From: Lepisosteus oculatus
Lineage: Eukaryota > Chordata > Actinopteri > Semionotiformes > Lepisosteidae
DNA: 64,000 bases
Direction of reading: 5' to 3'
Assembly: GCF_040954835.1 (NCBI RefSeq)
Contig: NC_090716.1
Coordinates: forward strand, 9,564,775 to 9,628,774
Both the position numbers and the translations under genes were made by a program. How positions within the stretch are numbered: the stretch's first letter is position 1; each line of letters begins with the position of its first letter. Of this stretch, positions 46,301 through 49,300 are shown one piece after another. The notes below the pieces were generated by a model that saw only the letters and a program-made list of their open reading frames with translations, was not told where the DNA came from and did no database searches.

Positions 46301-49300
46301 TGTAGAGCCCCATCCTTTTTGCGTGGGTCCACCGTGGGATCTGTGAGCATCTGGTAGCAGAAGCCCATGGTTTTCTGAAGCACCTGTTGCCGAAAAGAGC
46401 CCTTCACATGAGCACTGCTAAAAATACTTTTATCACCCTGTGAACCTCACAGTTATAAGCCGGAATTCGCCTGAATTACTAAAACATGTAGAAACACTTG
46501 AATCTTCACCAACTCAAAAGTTCAACAGTGCATCTGCATTGCAACATGACTAGTTCAGTACTATTACACAATATAAGTGTTCGAAGTGTTTACGGTAAAC
46601 CATGTGGGAGAGTATGGAGGCTGGCCAGTGCTGGCGTTGTCTTGGAGACGTCACTAGACCAGTACTATGACCTCCAGTTTCTCTGTGGCTGCAGGCATTG
46701 TGTGAGCACTGCTGTCAGACTGCAGGACACAGGCGAACAGCAACACTTAACATGGACTGTCACCACGCACACAGGCTGCCCCCAGCCAGGACACCTCAGC
46801 TTTTAGAAACTGTCACCAGTTCAGTCTGTGGTGAGAGGAAAACACCACATGTAAAGCGTAAAACATTTAACCGACAACGTTATACGAGCCAATCCCAGCA
46901 ATTCTGTAAGGACTTCTTTTGCCCTTTGTGACAAAGGTAACCAAGGAGAAAAGGCAATTTGAGTCACCTCGCGTGTTGAATAACTAGTGTTTAATTCACA
47001 CAGAAATCTCTGACAGTTTGAGCGATTCCAAAAAGTAACATCCTTGACCAAAGCAACGCTTCTATATGTCCCGTGTCACGGCCGTGAAATAATTTAAAGT
47101 AACTTTTCAGAGAACTGACAGGTGACTCGGGTTCCAAACTATTCAGTAAACAGGCAGCCCACAGATGAAGTGACGAATGATCAACGAGCTGCACTACAGA
47201 GAAAAAGGAGGGCCTTGAAATGTGACACGATCAAAGAGGGAACATTGCAGAAAACACAAGAGGAACTGTGTTAAAACATGTTGACTAAGCACTCACTTCT
47301 TTCCTCTTGCTACACGCTGTGAAGAGAAGCGTCTGCGCAGCTGTTGTTGGGGAGATGAAATCTTCAAACACGTCTGTTCAAGAGAAACATATTGCATGCC
47401 AGTCTTGGTTACCAACAATCAACAGAGGTGCAGCAGCAACAGCCTGGGAAAGTCTCATTACATCTGCTTGATCCAATTACTTGCTATCGAGTCTTCAACT
47501 ATTTCGGAATAATCAGTCCACGGTACTGGCACTGCATCCAGATGACACCATGTGGCCGAGCTACATTTTGGCTCTATTCTAAAGGAATAAGATGGCTGAA
47601 AATTTTCAGAATAATACAAGAAAAGTAGGAGAGTGACCTTCAATTAACCATGTTGATTACAGCCTATCACCTAGAGCCATTCATTCCAAAAGGCCATTCT
47701 TTACTCATGGCTCATCATACAATTCTGATTCTTCATTCACGGCTCTGATGTATTCATTAACAGGGGTGTAGAAGGGCCTTCTTACCAAACTTCATGCGGA
47801 TGTACTCATAAGGATCTTCCTGCCACAGCTCTTCATCAGTGTCTGTGTAACACATCAGGGGGAAGACCACATCCTGAATGATCCCCTGTGTTATGTTAAA
47901 AATAAAAAAAGCACATGACCCTGAGCAAAAACAAATCTGAGTCAGGTAATCGCATACAGCCAGCAGAGGTAATGCACGTGAGCTGTGGGAGAGTATGGAG
48001 GCTGGCCAGTGCTGGCGCTGTCTTGGAGACGTCACTAGACCAGTACTATGATCTCCAGTTTCTCTGTGGCTGCAGGCATTGTGTGAGCACTGCTGTCAGA
48101 CTGCAGGACACAGGCAAACAGCAACACTTAACATGGACTGTCACCACGCACACAGGCTGCCCCCAGCCAGGGTTCCTTAATCCCCTCACAACAGCAGCGC
48201 TGGGGTTAGTCAAATTACAGAGGTAATTAGTGTTCAGTGTCACTAACTTGTACTTTCATGCGCTGCTTAAAATACGATTACTAACGGCTGAGGTTATTAA
48301 TTTGGATTTATTCAGATCAAACCAATTATGCATGGTTAAATCTGTTACAAAAAAAACAAGACTAGAGTTGATAAAAAAATCATACTACTTGGAAAAAATA
48401 TTGGAATGAACCTTCTTGTGGGGGAAAAAGGCTACATTTGTATGGCACAGCTGAAGAATCATGACAAACAGCAGCACGTGAACTCGAGTGTCTGGATTTA
48501 AACAAGCCTCCCACTGCAAGCTGCAAGCAACACACTCATCACATGAGTGGCTTTTCACCCGTTAGACAAGAGGCCTCCAGCACACAGGCTGGTTTTGTTA
48601 CTTGGTAAGCAGGTCCAAAATGTGATTTAATCTTAAATAAAACAATGGTCAGAAACTGCATAATAAAAGAAGAAGAATGCTGTTCAGTAGAGAATAATGT
48701 TTGTCCTGGATTATAGAATCAACATTCTGAAGAGAATCAGACAACCACCAATCCCTGGTATGTCTGACAGAACACACTGAGATAGAGAAATCTCACCTTT
48801 ATGTCTCTGCAGCTACAGGTGAATTCATTACATACCTGGATATGTGGTTTGAGGTTCTTCCAAGTAAGCGCGTGTCCAACGCCCTGGTTGATGTAGTTCA
48901 GCGTCTGCTGGAGCACCCTGGGAGCTACATACTGCTTTTCCTTAAACTGATATAAGACCTTCAATAAAACCTGTAAGACAGCACAGAACAGGGTTCAGTC
49001 GGGAACAGTGGAGAGGGACGTCATGCACAACAGAGCAACGGCTCACACTACTACCTGCTGAGCAGAAACAGCATAGCCCTTGAGGAACAGCTCGGCAAAC
49101 TCGGTGTACTCTTTGGAGATGTTACCTGGGCTGCCATACCTGCAAAAGCGAAAGGTTGGGTCAAAGTGGGAACCAGGGGGTGGGCAGTCTCTCCAACAGA
49201 GACCATGAGCACACAATTCCTCCCCCGAAACTAGTGTTAAACTAGCAGCTTAAAAGTGTGCATCATCTAGCAGTCAAGTGAAAAGGGGTCCTATGCTCTC

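Follow-up and report, generated by a model that had tools for sequence, protein, structure and literature searches.

Why does a single gene of Lepisosteus oculatus carry the same 188-nt segment, almost unchanged, in two different introns? The window, i.e. the whole 64,000-nt stretch of DNA analysed here, contains one shared block at 46603-46790 (copy 1) and another at 47984-48171 (copy 2), both of 188 nt and both on the minus strand. The two blocks differ by three substitutions, at 46735/48116, 46671/48052 and 46637/48018 (copy 1/copy 2), with 0 gaps over 188 nt, corresponding to an identity of 98.4% (1.6% divergence). BLAST comparison of 46300-47290 against 47900-48720 returned the block with an E-value of 6e-93, and the remaining matches between these surrounding stretches are 9-23 nt long, with E-values of at least 0.099. 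Directly outside the block, 0/3 bases are identical on the 5′ and 3′ sides alike, and the ungapped 50-nt flanks share 16/50 bases on the 5′ side and 11/50 on the 3′ side. The edges of the block coincide, to within 2-3 nt, with the ends predicted for the RNA described below. Both coordinates and alignment agree with a preliminary description of this locus, which had reported a 188-bp segment present twice in the same orientation, with three substitutions, no gaps and unrelated flanks. Elsewhere, the window harbors a tandem array of a 35-bp unit (29305-29869, 16.2 copies, 85% matches) and a nested tandem repeat with periods of 12, 17, 24, 36 and 72 bp (2852-3041).

The host of both copies is ipo7 (importin 7), the coding region of which (37306..58497, minus strand) begins with an ATG at 58497 and ends in a stop codon at 37306. 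We located 25 coding pieces, 21 of them by exon peptides and four by short words; one extra seed, in which exon 24 was spelled differently, had no match. A 228-residue translation of six joined exons matches 228/228 residues of the PDB chain 6n88_A, 'Importin 7 L homeolog', presumably from Xenopus, with an E-value of 5e-145. In addition, an importin-beta N-terminal domain was assigned to one exon, and a second exon submitted gave no family. Copy 1 lies in intron 11 (46384..47296, minus, 913 nt), with 216 nt between the RNA end and the 3′ splice site, and copy 2 lies in intron 9 (47886..48835, minus, 950 nt), with a corresponding distance of 95 nt. Exons 10 and 11 intervene between the two host introns, as does intron 10 (47374..47785, minus, 412 nt), which has no Rfam match at E-values up to 1. 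Splice sites were checked for introns 9, 10, 11 and 13, and all four introns are of the GT-AG type. The host and the shared strand had thus been correctly named beforehand; the two introns, previously called neighbouring, are indeed different ones but are not adjacent.

Each copy is a full-length member of the H/ACA snoRNA family SNORA23 (Rfam RF00319). The RNA of copy 1 (46600..46790, minus, about 188-191 nt) scores 107.3 bits (E 4e-21) and that of copy 2 (47981..48171, minus) 109.7 bits (E 1e-21), both over model positions 1-184 of 184 and against a curated cut-off of 45 bits. At the curated Rfam thresholds the window has no other match, and the ipo7 region 20000-64000, searched at E-values up to 1, contains no snoRNA beyond them. 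In the 191-nt RNA, the H box AGAGAA (consensus ANANNA) starts at nt 107, between two hairpins, and the ACA box at nt 186, leaving 3 nt to the 3′ end. Thus the family named from the letters alone, as well as the H/ACA class read from AGAGAA and an ACA three nt from the end, is borne out by the covariance model and by the placement of the boxes. The Rfam model starts 10 nt inside the shared block, and this 10-nt extension contributes, in the predicted fold, the segment UGGCUG, which pairs with CAGCCA located one base before the H box. The shared block therefore corresponds approximately to the whole RNA.

The predicted folds are less distinctive. Fold energy by itself is unremarkable for both copies, with z-scores of -1.58 and -0.27, and 15/200 and 77/200 shuffles fold equally well or better. 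For the 84-nt 3′ part, a non-canonical fold is preferred over the canonical hairpin in copy 1 (-26.8 vs -18.0 kcal/mol) and also in copy 2 (-21.5 vs -18.9 kcal/mol); holding the boxes unpaired restores the canonical form in copy 2 only. What identifies the two RNAs as SNORA23 is their covariance-model match, their boxes and their host gene, not fold energy.

A short segment with abrupt edges that is found twice might simply belong to a dispersed repeat family, for instance a SINE derived from a snoRNA, and the preliminary description had named many further genomic copies as the sign of one. Across the genome (1.2 Gb, 813 contigs), the search for the 188-nt unit yielded 2 first-look candidates and as many matches, which lie in the window. 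A search for the SNORA23 family at E-values up to 10 returned the same 2 matches among the 35 of 47,780 first-look candidates that were scored. These counts are lower bounds, and very common words were skipped. The same family search of 14 control genomes gave sub-threshold matches in 4/14 and matches over the cut-off in 0/14. Besides this ipo7, the genome possesses an importin-like paralogue on contig C7, with an identity of 50-71%, which is presumably ipo8; no SNORA23 was found in it among the family candidates scored (35 of 47,780). As the unit, and among the scored candidates (35 of 47,780) the family too, was found at just two places, the segment does not behave as a dispersed repeat, and we regard that explanation as having a negligible probability.

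To which rRNA site might the two RNAs be directed? The guide pockets were scanned against seven rRNA pieces. Five were 28S fragments belonging to this genome, and the other two were the large- and small-subunit rRNAs (LSU and SSU) from a single contaminant locus. Among these pieces, the 3′ pockets of copies 1 and 2 both pair best with the helix 69 U of GGGAGUAACUAUGAC, equally in the genome's own 28S fragment and in the one contaminant LSU scanned. The pocket pairs with helix 69 through 9+4 base pairs in copy 1 and 7+4 in copy 2, scores that were matched by 12/300 and 45/300 shuffled guides, respectively. The pairing of copy 2 is by itself not rare, and with shuffles reaching the scores in 45 and 12 of 300 cases, complementarity to helix 69 is supportive but not decisive alone. 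We take this first U of the helix 69 loop to be human position 28S-3737. In addition, a search for the helix 69 pattern in the viral contigs (viral_contigs) gave 0 matches.

The 5′ pocket, scanned under two pocket definitions, yielded no target above shuffles, as shuffled guides did equally well in 298/300 and 184/300 cases. Nor did the 28S-4331 site give a match above shuffles for this pocket, a result to be read with the uncertain limits of the pocket and the incomplete downstream 28S pieces of this genome. The chicken position 28S-3816 presumably corresponds to human 28S-4331, as judged from the numbering offset. Human ACA23, hosted by IPO7, is reported to target both 28S-3737 and 28S-4331 (PMC6466398). 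In chicken, the ACA23 function at 28S-3816 has been credited to the 3′ hairpin of GGgACA43, a 132-nt intergenic RNA (PMC2653536). Should GGgACA43 be an orthologue of ACA23, this assignment does not fit with placing 28S-4331 on the 5′ hairpin. Moreover, human SNORA23 is reported to alter 2′-O-methylation of 28S rRNA (PMC8763008), and its action may therefore exceed pseudouridylation.

The rRNA sequences collected for these searches have features of their own. In L016 (G000:C23, exact pattern match at 1043419-1043444), the genome's 28S rRNA sequence is interrupted immediately after CTCTTAAGG, at a point that we take to be the insertion site of the R2 retrotransposon, and the 28S fragments L018, L019 and L021 resume at TAGCCAAATGCC. 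L017 is a second exact match, with the same Rfam score as L016. Eight contigs in bacterial assemblies (L001-L008) carry a 42-base eukaryotic-type 28S pattern. Rfam searches of four of them recognized eukaryotic large-subunit rRNA in 4/4 and small-subunit rRNA in 3/4, and L006 has a group I intron match inside its 28S. These rRNA contigs are apparently contamination.

Given two nearly identical genes, one of them might be a non-expressed, decaying duplicate, with suspicion falling on copy 1. Of the snoRNAs annotated in each vertebrate genome, one third are predicted to be expressed (PMC10234308). Two of the three substituted sites show the Rfam consensus base in one copy, each time copy 2, which may make copy 1 the derived form; copy 1 also scores slightly lower against the model and has the more stable non-canonical 3′ fold. 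By contrast, the boxes of copy 1 are intact, and the substitution at nt 120 changes an A-U pair of the lower stem into a G-U pair, which still holds the stem, while the G of copy 1 adds two pairs with the target. With its stem kept and its target pairing lengthened, copy 1 is therefore not obviously damaged, and judging from the sequence the three substitutions look compatible with function. We thus consider a decaying duplicate improbable, and favor two genes of the same guide.

The position of the two genes within ipo7 also seems to differ from that reported in human. Human IPO7 has 25 coding exons, and 25 coding pieces were likewise located here, so that introns can be compared by number on the assumption of equal exon numbering. 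The copies described here resemble human SNORA23/ACA23 in family, in a match to the full-length model, in H/ACA layout, in their sense orientation within an intron of IPO7 and in a 3′ guide to helix 69. However, human SNORA23 is reported between exons 13 and 14 of IPO7 (PMC8763008), whereas the present copies occupy introns 9 and 11. Intron 13 of ipo7 (45440..46046, minus, 607 nt) has no SNORA23 match; the stretch 45200-46300 spanning it contains no SNORA23 at Rfam E-values up to 10, and the five matches it does give at that level all fall under the cut-offs of their families. Therefore, SNORA23 seems to have changed introns inside one host, from a comparison of intron 13 in human with introns 9 and 11 here. 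For other fishes, a zebrafish SNORA23 gene is entered, with its host unstated, in a table of brain RNA-seq data (PMC5397488), indicating that a fish SNORA23 has been detected as RNA. The titles and abstract openings of the papers listed by the literature searches contain no report of a SNORA23 duplication in fishes.

How did the second copy arise? One explanation, to which we give an even chance, is a recent duplication, in which the RNA unit alone passed from one intron to the other, by retroposition or by some other transfer templated by RNA or DNA. It accounts well for a block that ends within 2-3 nt of the predicted RNA ends, for flanks that are unrelated directly outside, and for a divergence of 1.6%. 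Intragenic duplication and snoRNA mobility are, moreover, reported as established phenomena (PMC2653536, PMC3511168); the latter study concludes that snoRNA mobility within genomes is ongoing, and in chicken almost all snoRNA paralogues are attributed to intragenic duplication (PMC2653536). However, the hallmarks of snoRTs, a poly(A) tail together with a target-site duplication, are missing at this locus. There is no poly(A) run in the 3′ flanks of either copy, and the longest words common to the 30-nt flanks, of 4 and 6 nt, were reached by 900/1000 and 91/1000 shuffles, i.e. within chance. In addition, the 3-nt tail after the ACA box was not copied, a slight difficulty for the idea that the mature RNA was retroposed.

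The same tail brings in a second explanation, somewhat less probable in our estimate, that the duplication is old and that gene conversion restricted to the shared block has preserved the likeness of the RNA units, while the flanks and the 3-nt tail drifted. The shared sequence ends with the ACA box; the tail beyond it differs at 3/3 positions vs 3/188 within the block, which would be unexpected if the whole mature RNA had been copied. The lack of a poly(A) run and of a convincing target-site duplication is also consistent with conversion. Furthermore, SNORA23 is not a slowly evolving family: compared to the RF00319 consensus, the copies keep just 112/184 and 114/184 positions. Because the family tolerates this much change, constraint alone is unlikely to explain an identity of 98.4%, which therefore points to either recent copying or homogenization. 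Nevertheless, recent copying with an imprecise 3′ end would fit the same data. The preliminary description had proposed either a fish-lineage duplication or gene conversion, and the sequence agrees with both recent copying and conversion.

The closest precedent known to us from these sources comes from chicken, where GGgACA39 (ACA54) has two isoforms in introns 7 and 9 of NAP1L4 (PMC2653536). As in ipo7, one H/ACA snoRNA occurs twice in one host, in introns two numbers apart, although in another family and another lineage. Many of the chicken paralogues are described as having varied extensively (PMC2653536), in contrast to the 98.4% identity of the SNORA23 copies here. We tentatively raise a broader possibility, itself rather unlikely, that SNORA23 moves among the introns of one host (13 in human, 9 and 11 here) and that gene conversion acting within the RNA unit alone homogenizes its resident copies, as their surroundings drift.

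Altogether, ipo7 very probably contains two SNORA23 genes, in introns 9 and 11, which share the same helix 69 guide and the second of which arose by intragenic duplication. We propose that each SNORA23 would be transcribed within the ipo7 pre-mRNA, freed during intron processing and then assembled with the H/ACA proteins. The pocket of the 3′ hairpin would guide pseudouridylation of the first U in the loop of 28S helix 69 (GGGAG-U-AACUAUGAC). The second copy, produced when the RNA unit was duplicated within ipo7, would mainly provide extra dosage of the same guide.

These results show that a vertebrate ipo7 can carry SNORA23 in duplicate, with an apparent change of intron compared to the position reported in human. 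They leave current views unaltered, as intragenic duplication and mobility of snoRNAs are already established (PMC2653536, PMC3511168). The three variant sites can be distinguished in small-RNA reads, so that the output of two introns of one transcript becomes comparable. If the copies do move between introns and are converted there, ipo7 would offer a small natural system for a snoRNA that changes introns without leaving its host.
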